Assembly: GCA_945862235.1 (NCBI GenBank)
Contig: CAMAYU010000008.1
Coordinates: 1 to 64,000 of the forward strand
Direction: 5' to 3'
DNA length: 64,000 bases
DNA from: Schlesneria paludicola DSM 18645
Lineage (GTDB): Bacteria; Planctomycetota; Planctomycetia; Planctomycetales; Planctomycetaceae
A program made the position numbers and the translations under genes. The notes under the pieces were generated by a model. That model made no database searches and had not been told where the DNA came from. It worked only from the letters and a program-made list of their open reading frames with translations. This document shows positions 10,159 to 51,921 of the stretch, one piece after another; within the stretch, counting starts at the first letter, position 1; each line of letters starts with the position of its first letter.

Positions 10159-11391
10159 TCACTTCGTGGCGATCTTCCACAGCGACTTGTCGCTGCGAAC
10201 ATAGATCGCGCCGTTCGCGATCGCGGGTGTGCAGAGGATCGTGTCGTCGAGGATGTTTGTCGAAACGAGTTCGCCCTGATCGTCACCCGGCTTCACCACA
10301 TGGGCCTCTCCCTTCTCGTTGAAAAAGTAGAGATGACCTCCCGCCGCGACGGGCGATCCACTGAAAGGTCCAGTCAGCCGCAGCTTCCACTTTTCATCGC
10401 CGGTCTTGGTGTCGCCGCAGGTCACAACACCAGCACCGTTCACCGAAAACAATCGGCCTTGGTAGACGATTGGGCTAGGAGTTGCCGGGCCGAGCTTACC
10501 GACGCGCCACAGGACTTCGATGTTCTCGCTTCCCGTCGGTGGCCGGATAGCGGTGATTCCCTGCGATGGAATGAACACCACGCCATCGGACACGACCGAA
10601 GAAGGGATCGTGGAGGCACCCTCCTTGTAATTCCATGCGACCGTTCCCGTCTGCGGCCTCACGGCGGCGAGTCCTTCGGACGACTGCAGCAACACCAAGT
10701 CTTCGTCGCTCGTCGGCCCTTTGTTCAGGATTGCGGCCGAAGTCCAGTTGGCTCGCTTCGGACGCTTCATCGTCCAGCGCGAGACACCCGTCACGACATC
10801 GACGCCCGTCGCCAACGACTCGCTGTCGTTCTCAACCTGCGCCACCAGCGTGTCACCCACGACGACGGGCGATGACGCCATTCCCAAGCTGTTGCTGACG
10901 TTGGGATGGTCGTACGTCAACCCGCGAAACCACAGCAAGTTGCCATCGAGATCGAGGCAGATCAGATCGTTGCTGGAGTAGAGGGCGAAGAGGCGTTGGC
11001 CATCGCTCGCGGGCGTTGGTGTGGCGTTACACATTTTGGAATGACTGCTGGTCCGACCGGTCGCCGTGAACTGCCGTTCCCACAGGGATGAGCCATCCTT
11101 GGCGTCGAAGCAAAACACATGCAGACGATCTTGGCGATAACCACTGGAGCCAGTCAGGAAGACGCGATCTCCGATGATGATCGGCGACGACAGACCGCGA
11201 CCGGGCAACGACACTTTCCACGCAATGTTCTCGGTCGCCGACCACGTCACGGGGAGAGACGCATCCTCCGCAACGCCCGTTGTGTCAGTCCCACGAAACT
11301 GCCGCCAATCGCCTGCGCTCGCCAGTCCCGTCAGCGCGATGATGCCGAACGAAGCCATCCAGCTTGCCCGCAAATATCTCATGTTCCACAT
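10159..11391 (-). CDS. Secreted PQQ-like beta-propeller protein
   Basis: A 410-residue protein with an N-terminal signal (MRYLRASWMASFGIIALTGL, cleavage near ASA-GDW). The mature part begins WRQFRGTDTTG, the opening that planctomycete PQQ-like propellers usually share, and repeats a W/F-ending blade pattern (GSSLWERQF, GNLLWFRGL, GVSRWTMKR, GTVAWNYKE, GDEKWKLRL), as in BamB and quinoprotein dehydrogenases. Catalytic quinoprotein residues cannot be assigned, so a structural or binding role is as likely as an enzymatic one. ATGs at 11391 and 11382 are both possible starts. A palindromic element lies immediately upstream. Confidence 0.9.
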   Translation of the reverse strand: MWNMRYLRASWMASFGIIALTGLASAGDWRQFRGTDTTGVAEDASLPVTWSATENIAWKVSLPGRGLSSPIIIGDRVFLTGSSGYRQDRLHVFCFDAKDGSSLWERQFTATGRTSSHSKMCNATPTPASDGQRLFALYSSNDLICLDLDGNLLWFRGLTYDHPNVSNSLGMASSPVVVGDTLVAQVENDSESLATGVDVVTGVSRWTMKRPKRANWTSAAILNKGPTSDEDLVLLQSSEGLAAVRPQTGTVAWNYKEGASTIPSSVVSDGVVFIPSQGITAIRPPTGSENIEVLWRVGKLGPATPSPIVYQGRLFSVNGAGVVTCGDTKTGDEKWKLRLTGPFSGSPVAAGGHLYFFNEKGEAHVVKPGDDQGELVSTNILDDTILCTPAIANGAIYVRSDKSLWKIATK

Positions 11392-11424
11392 GCTGTAATC
11401 CCTTCGGCGTGCGCCGAGTTTAGA

Positions 11425-11540
11425 GGGCATTTCAAGACCTGTTTCTGACCCGAAAAACTAGCCCGACGCGCAAGCGAGGGCTGAGCATTCGATGATCGTG
11501 AAGCCCTCGCTTGCGCGTCGGGCTAGTTTTGAAATGCCCA
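11425..11540. repeat. Full-length TAGCCCGACGCGCAAGCGAG palindrome with outer arms
   Basis: Inner arms AAAACTAGCCCGACGCGCAA... (11454-11482) and its complement (11502-11530) pair perfectly over 29 bases. Outer arms GGGCATTTCAA and TTGAAATGCCC enclose an unpaired stretch, ACCTGTTTCTGACCCG, on the left only. A second copy with the same arms and the same one-sided stretch is at 40325-40443, which defines a unit of about 116 bases. Confidence 0.9.
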
Positions 11541-11574: not shown

Positions 11575-12747
11575 TCAGCGGTCCAGTTGCGAGGTCGTCA
11601 CTGCGTTCTTGCTGGGCAGGATCGCGGCTCCTGCCGAGTCGCAAACACGAACTTGGTACTTCCAATCCTGTGCCCAATCCTCGGTCTGTTCGTTCTGACA
11701 GACCTTGATGAGGATGGCGTTTGTGCCCGACTTCAATTTTGCTTTCACGCGGTATTGATCGAGTTGCGTGCCGCGATGGTATTCGTCACGGGCGAAGACC
11801 AGTTCACCGTTGACCCATAACTTCCACGCGTTGGGAGTTCCCAGTCGCAGCTCGATGCTGCGCGGAGTGTCCGTCGTGAACGTGGTGTATCCGTAGGTGA
11901 TCGCCCCTTTGTGGGGAGCCGTCTTTTTGGCAATGTTGAACACGCCGTATTCGTCTTCAGTGACGTAATGCTCCCACGCGACATCGCCCATCTTTCCGGG
12001 CAGCTTGGCCGTGAGATCGACTTGCGACTCTGGAGGGTAAGCCACGTCGAATCCCTTCTTGTCCGTGTTGTCAAACGGGCCGATCAGATGCCACGCGGTG
12101 AGGAATCCAAAGTGCTTCGGCAGATCAACGGTCTCGCCCAATTCTCGCAACGGCTTGACGATCGCTTTCACTTGATCGTCGTCAATCGCGCCGGAGAGTG
12201 CTTCACGAAAGAGCGCGATGGCGTCGGCAGACTTCTTGTCCTCGTGAGCCTTCTCCGCACGATTCAGCAACCGCTGCACGGCATCGCGCCGGAACTCGGG
12301 GCTGGCGTCGCGAATCATTCCCGGAATAAGCCGATCGCTGGCCGATGCATCGACTTTGATGAGCCACTCGTAAGCCAGCCGCCGAGCTTCCGGGTGACGA
12401 GCGACATCTAAGACGAAGGCTTCTAATTCGCGAGTGGGGAGCGGGTGCGACTGCTTCAGTTCCCGTGCAGCCACGGCTTCAAACGCCCCACGCAGCCAGT
12501 TTGCGGCGAGCGGGTTCGCGTCGTCAAACGCCTTCAGAATCGGTAGCAGCGTGGCGGCATCGCCTCGCGACAACTCCTTGACCGCCGCAATGGCGTTCGC
12601 GTGTCCTGACCCTTCCGCCGCGACGGCGCGAATAGCTCGCACCTGTTCGTCCAGCGAAGCGGCGTCACTCGCAATTGGCCACGCCAACACGGTGGCTACG
12701 AGGACGAACGAGCCGCTCCACTTTTGAGCAATTCGACCTGACTTCAT
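11575..12747 (-). CDS. Secreted protein with jelly-roll-like C-terminal domain
   Basis: A 390-residue protein of unknown function. The ATG at 12747 lies after GAAGGA and begins a signal peptide (MKSGRIAQKWSGSFVLVATV, then ASDA). Residues about 35-200 are helical and HEAT-like (ALKxIxAVxELSRGDAATLL style). The C-terminal half (GFLTAWHLIGPFDNTDKKGF, then ITYGYTTFTTDTPRSIELRL, WKLWVNGELVFARDEYHRG, GTNAILIKVCQNEQTEDW) matches the beta-sandwich seen in sugar-binding regions of glycoside hydrolases, so glycan binding is a fair inference. It is alone on its strand, with palindromes on both sides. Confidence 0.85.
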   Translation of the reverse strand: MKSGRIAQKWSGSFVLVATVLAWPIASDAASLDEQVRAIRAVAAEGSGHANAIAAVKELSRGDAATLLPILKAFDDANPLAANWLRGAFEAVAARELKQSHPLPTRELEAFVLDVARHPEARRLAYEWLIKVDASASDRLIPGMIRDASPEFRRDAVQRLLNRAEKAHEDKKSADAIALFREALSGAIDDDQVKAIVKPLRELGETVDLPKHFGFLTAWHLIGPFDNTDKKGFDVAYPPESQVDLTAKLPGKMGDVAWEHYVTEDEYGVFNIAKKTAPHKGAITYGYTTFTTDTPRSIELRLGTPNAWKLWVNGELVFARDEYHRGTQLDQYRVKAKLKSGTNAILIKVCQNEQTEDWAQDWKYQVRVCDSAGAAILPSKNAVTTSQLDR

Positions 12748-13232
12748 CGTGGCGTCCTTCACGAGGCAACCTTTCTACTGACTCCGGCTTCCTCGACGGA
12801 ACCGGCCCCCAAAAATCGAGGCGGATTGTAGTCGTCGCTCCTCGCAAATAGGAAACGTCATCAGTCCGTGATCGCACTTTGCGGAGAGAAGTCTTCCGGA
12901 CAGTAGTCCGGCATTAGAAAAAGCCGGACTGGGGGCTCCTTCAAGAGGCTGCTCACCCTGCCGCGTGTTCACGGTGACGACCCTGCCCCACAGGGCCATC
13001 GCCTTTTCAATTTAGTTTCTTGGTTAGTTTCTTCGTCTGTCGCTTCTGTGCAATCTTTTTCGCAGATTGCACGGAAGCGACAGACAATGAAACTAAACAT
13101 CGAGAAATCATGGTGGGCCGGCGCGGCAAAACGCCGCAGGTCCGATCCTGCCGCTTTCGCAGCCCCAACAAGGCGATGGTCCTGCCGAAAGCCACGAAAC
13201 CTTATCTGTTGAAGGACCAACGGAGCCTTCAA
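12748..13232. other. Intergenic region with hairpins and a composite repeat
   Basis: No gene is supported. It contains a small palindrome AGTCCGGC ... GCCGGACT (12905-12912 and 12923-12930) and the composite element annotated at 12991-13185. Confidence 0.6.
12991..13185. repeat. Composite palindromic element with an unusual inner cassette
   Basis: Borders GGGCCATCGCCTTTTCAA (left) and CCCCAACAAGGCGATGGTCC (right), plus an internal stretch of 28 bases at 13100-13127 (TCGAGAAATCATGGTGGGCC...), are shared with the inverted copy at 51662-51820. Between left border and core this copy holds a long hairpin at 13011-13097: TTTAGTTTC/GAAACTAAA outer arms and TCTGTCGCTTC-GTGCAATCT inner arms. The other copy has an unrelated palindrome at that place. 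Confidence 0.85.
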
Positions 13233-14165
13233 TCAGTTGTTCTCTGGAAGCCCTTCGGCGTGTCCGATGTTCTTCACCGGCGCGAAGAGGGCTAGGACTT
13301 CGCGGAGCAACTCTTCGTCGATCGGTTCGGCGAGCCACTTCGCCCAGTTGCGAATGTTGTTCGGATTCGCGCTGCCTGCGACAGTCGTCGTGATGTCGGG
13401 GTGAGCACACGAGAACTGCACTGCGAGCTTGGCGATGTCACTCCCGCGCTTCGCACACAGTTCTGCGGCCTGCCGAGCGGCGGCCTTCACGGCTTCCGGT
13501 TCCTTCAGCCACACGGGGAGCGGAGCGTTTGTCAGCAACCGAGCGGAGAACGGCCCGGCGTTCATGACTCCGACGCCCTTTGCTTTGAGGTACGGCACGG
13601 ACTCGTCCACGAAGCGTGTGTTCTGGAGCGTGTATTGGTTGTACGAGAGGACGCAATCGACATCGGTCTGATCGCAGATGAAACGAAAAATCTTTTGGGG
13701 ATAACCGCTGAAGCCGATGAATCGAACTTTGCCTTGTTGCTGAATCTTCCTCAGTGCGGGAATGGTCTCATCCACGATCTGCTGCATCGGGACGAACTCG
13801 ATGTCGTGACAGAGAATGATGTCGAGGTGATCGGTTCCGAGCCGGTGCAGGCTGACATCGACACTTTCGGCCACCCGCTTCGCGCTGAAATCAAAATGGG
13901 GAAGGTCGTAACGACCGAGCTTCGTGCAGAGCGTGTAGCTGTCGCGCGGCACGCCTCGCAGGGCGATCCCCAACAGCACCTCGCTCATGCCTCGCCCGTA
14001 GAACGGCGACGTGTCAATGAAGTTGAGTCCGCAATCGAGTGCCACACGCACACTGTTGAGTGCCTCGTCGAGCTGCACGCTGCGGAACTCTTGTCCCAGC
14101 GAGGATGCTCCAAAACTGAGGACGGGCAGTTCGAGTCCAGTCTTTCCAAGGGGGCGTGTTTGCAT
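13233..14165 (-). CDS. Aldo/keto reductase
   Basis: A 310-residue NAD(P)H-dependent aldo/keto reductase with a TIM-barrel fold. The catalytic tetrad is visible: Asp51 and Tyr56 in IDTSPFYGRG, Lys82 in LCTKLGRY and His120 in IILCHDIEF. The cofactor-binding C-terminal half includes GFSGYPQKIF, SYNQYTLQN, GVMNAGPFSARLL and the TTTVAGSANPNNI phosphate-binding loop. The overall pattern, starting MQTRPLGKTGLELPVLSFGA, is closest to the L-galactose/L-fucose dehydrogenase branch, so an aldose substrate is plausible but not shown. It is monocistronic by its surroundings. Confidence 0.93.
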   Translation of the reverse strand: MQTRPLGKTGLELPVLSFGASSLGQEFRSVQLDEALNSVRVALDCGLNFIDTSPFYGRGMSEVLLGIALRGVPRDSYTLCTKLGRYDLPHFDFSAKRVAESVDVSLHRLGTDHLDIILCHDIEFVPMQQIVDETIPALRKIQQQGKVRFIGFSGYPQKIFRFICDQTDVDCVLSYNQYTLQNTRFVDESVPYLKAKGVGVMNAGPFSARLLTNAPLPVWLKEPEAVKAAARQAAELCAKRGSDIAKLAVQFSCAHPDITTTVAGSANPNNIRNWAKWLAEPIDEELLREVLALFAPVKNIGHAEGLPENN

Positions 14166-29068: not shown

Positions 29069-29104
29069 GACCGATCAGTCTGCTAGGGCCATCTCGCTTT
29101 TTCA

Positions 29105-29213
29105 TTGTAGGGTGGGACAAGCTCGCTTCGAGCGCCGGCTCACCCTCGTGTAATCACTGGAAATTAGGGTGGGCCGGCGCGGCGAAGCGCCACTGATCCC
29201 ACCCTACATTCAG
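29105..29213. repeat. Double palindrome, GTGGGCCGGCGCGGC family
   Basis: Two units in tandem: GGGTGGGACAAGCTCGCTTC...GGCTCACCC and GGGTGGGCCGGCGCGGCGAA...GATCCCACCC, separated by about 18 bases. Both units occur inside the composite at 51662-51820; the second is also in 12991-13185. Here the outer GGGCCATCGCC border is absent. Confidence 0.82.
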
Positions 29214-29331
29214 CCCAACTTCAAAAAGACATTGGCCCAGCTCGGTCTGACTTCGCGTCTGGCGAAACGGAAACATGGAACATAGACTCCGCCCGCTGTC
29301 GCGAAGGGATTGAGTCACAGGAGAGGGAGCG

Positions 29332-38128: not shown

Positions 38129-38350
38129 ACTAGCCCGCCGCGCGAGCGAGGGCTTCGCTTTCAGAGGCTAATCGAAAAGAAACACTTGTTCTCAGGGTGC
38201 CACGGTCACGGCTTTGCGTAGCCGTGCTTTGGTCGTCGCGAAGCCACGGTCACGCAAGGCCGTGGCCGTGGCACTCAAAACACAATCGCAGCCAACCACG
38301 GTCACGGACGGCCTCTAACGCGACGCCCTCGCTTGCGCGTCGGGCTGGTT
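38129..38350. repeat. Palindrome split by an inserted second palindrome
   Basis: Left arm ACTAGCCCGCCGCGCGAGCG... (38129-38153) and right arm GCCCTCGCTTGCGCGTCGGG... (38325-38350) belong to the TAGCCCGACGCGCAAGCGAG family, whose loops are normally about 20 bases. Here they are about 170 bases apart, and 38195-38276 is a complete palindrome of the CACGGTCACGG family. Confidence 0.85.
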
Positions 38351-49539: not shown

Positions 49540-49659
49540 CGACGGACCTTTACGTGGAGGAGTGGTTGACAGGCCCATCTTACTGTCGCCCCGAACGCGA
49601 CAGAAGTGAGGCTCGCCCACTCTCTCAAGGCCATCGTCATGTTGAAATTGTGGTGTTGG

Positions 49660-49753
49660 GCGCCACGGTCACGGAGCTTCGACGTGACCGAGCAAATGTG
49701 GAAGTCGCCATGACATTCGGGCACGGCCACGTCGAAGCTCTGTGACCCTGGCA
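49660..49753. repeat. Palindromic element, CACGGTCACGG family
   Basis: Left arm GCGCCACGGTCACGGAGCTT... (49660-49686), right arm CACGGCCACGTCGAAGCTCT... (49722-49753), with several mismatches. It is close in sequence to 3191-3294. Confidence 0.85.
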
Positions 49754-49795
49754 CTCGAGAATAAAACAGGCGATGGCTCTGACTCTCCCCCCTCG

Positions 49796-51364: not shown

Positions 51365-51921
51365 GATGAGGCATCCTGTTCCTCAGTGAGTCCGAACCAT
51401 TCCACGTTCACTAGTCGAGACGACAGGCAGTCCGCTCGCAGTGACACCGACGCTCCACAAGGTCTGCTTAGTCGTCAAAGTCGAGGGCGACTTTTCCGAC
51501 TGGGTAACACCTGCGGGGCGTCGTGACATGGAACCCGTTGGCAAGCCGAGACTTCCGTGCGGCTTGCACCCGATGTATCGGACGCGACTCGTGAGCCGGT
51601 TGAATCAAATCCACCGGCGCGGACTGTCCTCTCAGGACGGTCGCTTTGTCTCACGGCGAGCGTAGGGCCATTGCCTTGTTGGGGCGGTGCAAGCAGTCGG
51701 GTGGGACCAGTGACGCTTCGCCGCGCCGGCCCACCATGATTTCTCGACGATTCCCGAGGGTGGGCTGGCGCTCGAAGCGAGCTGGTCCCACCCAATCTTG
51801 AAAAAGGCGATGGCCCTGCGGCAAGCGCGACGAGGCTTGCGACTCGGCGAAGCTCTGTTCATTGTTCACGCGGCAGTGTCATTGTCATTGAGAATGAAGT
51901 TGTTTCGTGTGAGGTCCGCCG
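51365..51921. other. Divergent intergenic region with a composite repeat
   Basis: 557 bases between a minus-strand and a plus-strand gene. The composite element at 51662-51820 is the only clear structure. An open frame at 51441-51665 has no recognisable content and no good ribosome-binding site. GAGGT at 51911-51915 precedes the TTG start of the DTW gene. Confidence 0.5.
51662..51820. repeat. Composite palindromic element, inverted copy
   Basis: Read on the minus strand it starts GCAGGGCCATCGCC and ends CCAACAAGGCAATGGCCC, the same borders as 12991-13185. It has the same core of 28 bases (TCGAGAAATCATGGTGGGCC...). The left inner cassette is GGGTGGGACCAGCTCGCTTC...CAGCCCACCC, a palindrome also found at 29105, where the other copy has an unrelated hairpin. 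Confidence 0.87.

Follow-up and report, generated by a model that had tools for sequence, protein, structure and literature searches.

Unrelated palindromic interiors between shared ISAs1-like transposon ends in a Schlesneria-like planctomycete genome

Two composite palindromes in the window, the whole stretch of 64,000 nucleotides analysed here (contig C8 of a 6.83 Mb draft genome in 377 contigs), carry the same borders and core around different left parts, which raises the question of whether palindromic modules are exchanged between otherwise similar elements. Both copies, at 12991-13184 (+) and 51663-51818 (-), open with CAGGGCCATCGCC and finish with GGCGATGG.CCTG or GGCAATGGCCCT. As described in an earlier sequence-only reading, the left border GGGCCATCGCC..CAA and the right border CCCCAACAAGGC are common to both, as is the core TCGAGAAATCATGGTGGGCCGGCGCGGC at 13100-13127, which is the longest stretch that they share and measures exactly 28 bases. 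Their left parts are unrelated, consisting of an 88-base palindrome (13011-13098) in the 12991 copy and GGGTGGGACCAGCTCGCTTCGAGCGCCAGCCCACCC in the 51.7-kb copy. The AT-richer hairpin reported in the former aligns with its own inverse (blastn, 81% over 79 bp, E 2.7e-16) and folds far better than expected as a single strand (z = -11.4), and the GGGTGGG..CCCACCC palindrome reported in the latter is also present, that copy folding at z = -8.0.

The likeness extends beyond these two copies. Matching pieces across the genome (n = 63 at E<=1e-3) are too many for chance, and the core is matched 106 times at up to two mismatches, as opposed to 16 times for the reversed control. The same reading placed a GGGTGGG..CCCACCC palindrome on its own at 29105, a claim that fails: it sits within a complete, decayed copy that has both ends and a degenerate core and aligns with the 51.7-kb copy at 84% over 124 bp (blastn). 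A fourth element, which combines the shared ends with a type B interior, had been missed (Table 1).

Table 1. Frame elements and related palindromes in the window
Feature	Position	Strand	Basis
Left end (short arm) of hybrid copy, CAGGGCCATCGCCTTTTCAA	12991..13010	+	end census, <=3 mismatches to 21-bp end
Palindrome D: inverted dimer of dispersed repeat (edge TTAGTTTC..GTGCAATCTGCGAA), in place of the left REP-like hairpin of A	13011..13098	.	blastn, fold; flank divergence of single copies (L062-L070) immediately outside TTAGTTTC
Remnant of interior A: spacer and right REP-like hairpin, holding the 28-base core; fold lost	13099..13152	+	
Right end (long arm) of hybrid copy, CGCAGCCCCAACAAGGCGATGGTCCTG; flanks without target duplication (3/9)	13153..13184	+	
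Full type A element, 156 bp; target duplication CGGCGAGCG / CGGCAAGCG (8/9)	51663..51818	-	
Full, decayed type A element; contains the 29105 palindrome	29084..29240	+	
Type B element, same ends, interior ..GGCGCCACGGTCACGGAGCTTCGACGTGACCG..CGGCCACGTCGAAGCTCTGTGACC..	49626..49781	+	
Type B-like palindrome GGGTGCCACGGTCACGG...GCCGTGGCCGTGGCACTC, without transposon ends	38195..38276	.	sequence read directly

Transposon ends and their likely mobiliser

The repeat is a non-coding MITE with ISAs1-like ends, present in dozens of copies in the genome. Its 21-bp end is matched 135 times at up to three mismatches, against 0-2 times for the reversed control. Terminal inverted repeats CAGGGCCATCGCCTT at both ends, as in MITEs generally, delimit 76 paired elements (<=6 mismatches in total), a threshold-dependent lower bound like all element counts in this census, which was compiled from searches and selected genome stretches. 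Most of these elements are 133-172 bp long and, as with other multicopy MITEs, they lack coding capacity. Flanking direct repeats of 9 bp match at 0.54-0.72 in all nine positions (background at other spacings about 0.25), and a target duplication of at least 78% match, also typical of MITEs, accompanies 32 of the 76 paired elements, compared with a mean of 0.5 and a maximum of 3 in shuffles. Such direct repeats combined with inverted ends are the signature of cut-and-paste insertion, and identify the repeat as a MITE.

Elements of the sister species G010 and G013 have nearly the same ends and a target duplication of 10 bp. The 21-base end also occurs in relatives labelled Schlesneria or Planctomycetota; outside the genus, the search of 59 relatives returned isolated end matches with two mismatches only. 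Three elements of 56-58 bp (L009:448-503, L206:990-1046 and L191:1000-1057) keep both ends but hardly anything of an A or B interior, as would be expected after deletion of the palindrome. A stretch like CTGAGGAACAGACCTCTGCTTGCCTTCTCTGTGCCTCTGCGTCTCTGTGG is repeated beside several interiors and borders (L095, L153, L147, L165).

ISAs1-type genes are present in 9 of 15 genomes of the genus, and this genome has ISAs1-family transposase fragments at two loci (NF033564, 210 and 269 bits). In the genus, complete ISAs1 copies terminate in CAGGGCAATCGCATCTAATT (L298) or CAGGGCCAGCGC (L299, L307) and have perfect 10-bp flanking repeats, one base longer than the 9-bp duplication here and equal to that of the sister-species MITEs. 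The first bases of the MITE ends agree with those of the genus ISAs1 ends, up to CAGGGCAATCGC; the MITE end is CAGGGCCATCGCC in this genome and CAGGGCAATCGCC in G013, where 12 bases are identical to one ISAs1 end. The likeness covers the outer 10-12 bases, and the inner part differs. Inverted-repeat searches around the ISAs1 copies of this genome recovered fragments without complete ends, a search for MITE ends around its DDE_Tnp_1 loci yielded no autonomous partner, and no autonomous element of this genome was seen to have the exact full MITE ends. Agreement in the outer bases and in duplication length suggests ISAs1 as the mobiliser; because the inner end differs and a full autonomous partner was not found, an ISAs1-family transposase is put forward here as the probable, sequence-based candidate for moving the MITE frame.

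Interiors framed by the ends

At least four interiors (A, B, C and E), among which no homology is detectable, lie between one and the same pair of ends in this genome. The ends lead into interior A 74 times, B 72 times, E 13 times and C 8 times, in threshold-dependent counts that take paired ends separately. Interiors A, B, C, D, E and H are mutually unrelated, with local alignment z of -1.4 to 2.0 between types and 32-38 within a type. These scores reject a continuous divergence of one interior into another, the outcome against which the sequence-only reading had set its proposal, and the additional copies show sharp replacement instead.

The sister species add to this variety. In G013 the same ends frame A, a fifth interior, H (GTAGGGTGGAGTCAATGTTACCC..), and others, and the interiors of G010 are for the most part B-like and 143 bp long. 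Mosaic elements are also present: L203 joins the left half of B to C and has no duplication, and L153 combines a C and an E interior in 337 bp with a duplication of 8/9. Two mosaics of G013 break inside an A hairpin, L263 having other hairpins inserted within it and L385 switching there from A to interior H. No clear case was seen of exchange at a single locus, in the form of the same insertion and target duplication with a different cassette in two relatives.

It could be argued that no cassette is exchangeable, and that each pairing of frame and palindrome arose once and independently as an internally deleted transposon with different DNA, composite or TIME-like. Every type has been amplified separately with its own target duplications, and the paired ends of TIMEs are known to mobilise arbitrary DNA (PMC4133298), both of which would agree with such origins. 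However, the interiors are nearly always dispersed palindromes instead of arbitrary DNA, A and B are close in length (154-157 bp), and the mosaics L203, L263 and L385, like the 12991 copy, break within a cassette, which makes independent origins rather unlikely. Transposon ends and REP-like palindromes appear instead to have been mixed and matched as modules, presumably by one of the exchange routes outlined in the next section.

Interior A is built of two GTAG-tagged REP-like hairpins arranged head to head (GTAG..CTAC), and it is also found as an independent, sharply bounded unit outside the frame. Among 78 well-aligned A copies, 35 have both transposon ends and 15 have no recognised border, with at least two different borders among the rest. 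In the border-free copies, sequence information is 1.2-2 bits within the unit and less than 0.5 beyond it, the drop falling at GTAG/CTAC. The GTAG tag, the imperfect palindrome and the head-to-head pairing are marks of GTAG REP dimers (PMC3733652). Interior A shows the combination that defines GTAG REPs and BIMEs, GTAG beside an imperfect palindrome in a head-to-head pair, with fold z of -8 to -9 (-8.0 and -8.9 in complete copies). No RAYT (Y1 transposase) flanked by interior A was found, nor any A motif around the six Y1_Tnp matches of the genome. GTAG-tagged perfect hairpins (CCGTGGGTTTCAACCCACGG; CCTGTCGCTCCGCGACAGG) lie near the Y1 transposase loci L233 and L237; these may be usual RAYT/REP pairs belonging to other families. 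At L116, L129, L087 and other loci, interior A lies between inverted ends of a second kind (AGCAGCCTGTTGAAAA..TTTTTCAACAGGCTGCT), and the same cassette may be carried by more than one frame.

The strong folds of A and D also invite a functional reading, in which the hairpins serve as RNA or DNA elements, such as terminators or mRNA stabilisers, and interiors are kept for this role while their sequence is free to change. Such roles have been described for REPs and MITEs (PMC3733652, PMC10969869), and insertion into long open frames (at least 200 aa) is rarer than random, at 11 of 21 healed sites against 86% of random positions. Many copies are nonetheless decayed, the A half at 12991 among them, and nothing points to conservation between species at one locus. 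A functional role of this kind is improbable.

The hybrid copy at 12991

Palindrome D, which takes the place of the left A hairpin in the 12991 copy, is a different dispersed repeat in the form of an inverted dimer and has no other full copy. The repeat occurs singly at six other loci, where the flanks diverge just outside TTAGTTTC, the edge of D. It contains a small inner inverted repeat, CAATCT..AGATTG, that would suit an origin of the D dimer by template switching. From the spacer onward the copy is A, although this half folds no better than shuffles (z = +0.5). In L127, a second case, the A spacer is preceded at the same point by a foreign palindrome. Because the copy lacks a target duplication, D is single in this arrangement and the fold of the A half is lost, the 12991 copy looks like the product of a single nested insertion or recombination event and has since decayed. 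The cassette exchange between palindromic modules put forward in the sequence-only reading stands as a general pattern, in the sharp replacement across copies, and is not supported as a clean exchange at this locus.

The missing duplication would also be expected if the hybrid were a rearrangement scar, formed where two elements at separate loci recombined ectopically, as opposed to a cassette exchange. Its flanking genes (11575-12762 and 13233-14165) lie on separate contigs in G010, G011, G012 and G013, and in G003, a complete genome, they are 750 kb from each other, and 10159-11430 and 11575-12762 are kept together in four of these five relatives, three of which (G010, G011 and G012) have a different neighbour in common at the position of the copy. 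However, the junction after 14165 is broken in these relatives as well, and a break at the element is therefore not telling. Gene order is poorly kept throughout, so the lost adjacency of the flanking genes does not decide between insertion and recombination, and the breakpoint at 12991 was set aside as proof of recombination. A recombination scar is a possible but doubtful explanation of the hybrid.

An assembly artefact joining reads of two repeat copies is very improbable. The genome is a draft in which several contigs end within such elements, but no other copy is more than 87% identical to the A half at 12991 and D has no other full copy, leaving no long exact overlap, and the same mixing occurs in other genomes.

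The evidence is probably best explained by a MITE frame with exchangeable palindromic cassettes, mobilised by an ISAs1-type transposase, of which the 12991 copy would be an unamplified, decayed hybrid. The transposase would recognise the inverted ends, a short arm CAGGGCCATCGCCTTTTTCAA and a long arm CAGGGCCATCGCCTTGTTGGGTCTGCGAAACCT, move anything lying between them and leave the 9-bp duplication observed at the copies. The interior would act as a palindromic cassette, type A being the GTAG..CTAC pair that also occurs outside the frame, and B, C, E and H being unrelated palindromes. Formation of a new combination of frame and cassette would be a rare event, probably either the insertion of a palindromic repeat into the frame interior or a template switch during replication or recombination at common ends or hairpins, and some combinations may later have been amplified by transposition. 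At 12991, the left A hairpin would have been replaced by the inverted dimer of the TTAGTTTC repeat, in a combination that was not amplified and then decayed.

Relation to known systems

The statement in the sequence-only reading that such exchange is undescribed for simple MITE or REP elements was too strong, as NIMEs, GTAG-15 REP dimers and TIMEs are clear precedents. The elements resemble bacterial MITEs such as RUP, NEMIS/Correia and ERIC, which are short and non-coding, have terminal inverted repeats, target duplications and many intergenic copies, and are likely moved in trans by the transposase of an insertion sequence. Those families usually have one interior each, whereas in this one genome at least four unrelated palindromes share a single pair of ends. 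The insertion sequences of the ISAs1 family in the genus (L298, L299, L307) have similar ends (CAGGGC.ATCGC / CAGGGCCAGCGC) and a 10-bp target duplication, but they encode a transposase, and they resemble the MITE ends over roughly the first 12 bases only.

Interior A is similar to GTAG REPs, REP dimers, BIMEs and REPINs (PMC3733652, PMC3116915) in its outer-edge GTAG, imperfect palindrome, head-to-head dimer, conserved spacer and intergenic position. The GTAG-15 REP dimers of Anabaena variabilis also sit within a longer palindrome (PMC3733652, section 7). Here, in contrast, the surrounding palindrome has 9-bp target duplications, ISAs1-like ends and other interiors too, and no RAYT was found beside A copies in this genome.

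In Neisseria, the NIMEs (dRS3 plus RS families, PMC3898611) likewise combine one short border repeat with several unrelated inner repeats. Their dRS3 is a 20-bp repeat that is targeted by a phage integrase and forms long arrays, whereas transposon ends, target duplications and mostly single elements are seen here; the borders are CAGGGCCATCGCC.. and do not match the dRS3 pattern ATTCCC(N8)GGGAAT (PMC3898611). The Tn3-derived TIMEs (PMC4133298) are alike in having non-autonomous ends that carry different DNA and in forming mosaic elements. They differ in belonging to the Tn3 family, with 38-bp ends and a 5-bp duplication, as opposed to 9-10 bp here, and in carrying genes or plasmid segments, not palindromic repeats.

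The spread of REP-like palindromes has been argued mainly via RAYT enzymes, and a REP-like pair in a transposon frame with target duplications represents a second, testable route. With its many cassettes and mosaics, the genus also offers natural data on hairpin swapping, whether by template switching, nested insertion or other routes. It is tentatively suggested that the ISAs1-type frame in Schlesneria-like planctomycetes may serve as a shuttle for REP-like palindromes, which would enter it repeatedly, be spread by a DDE transposase with target duplications and exit as free units, so that two mobility systems would interact. No paper on ISAs1 MITEs with REP interiors was found in the open-access literature. 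As far as that literature shows, GTAG-15 dimers, NIMEs and TIMEs are the nearest precedents, none of which combines DDE-type ends, target duplications and several unrelated palindromic interiors within one genome.
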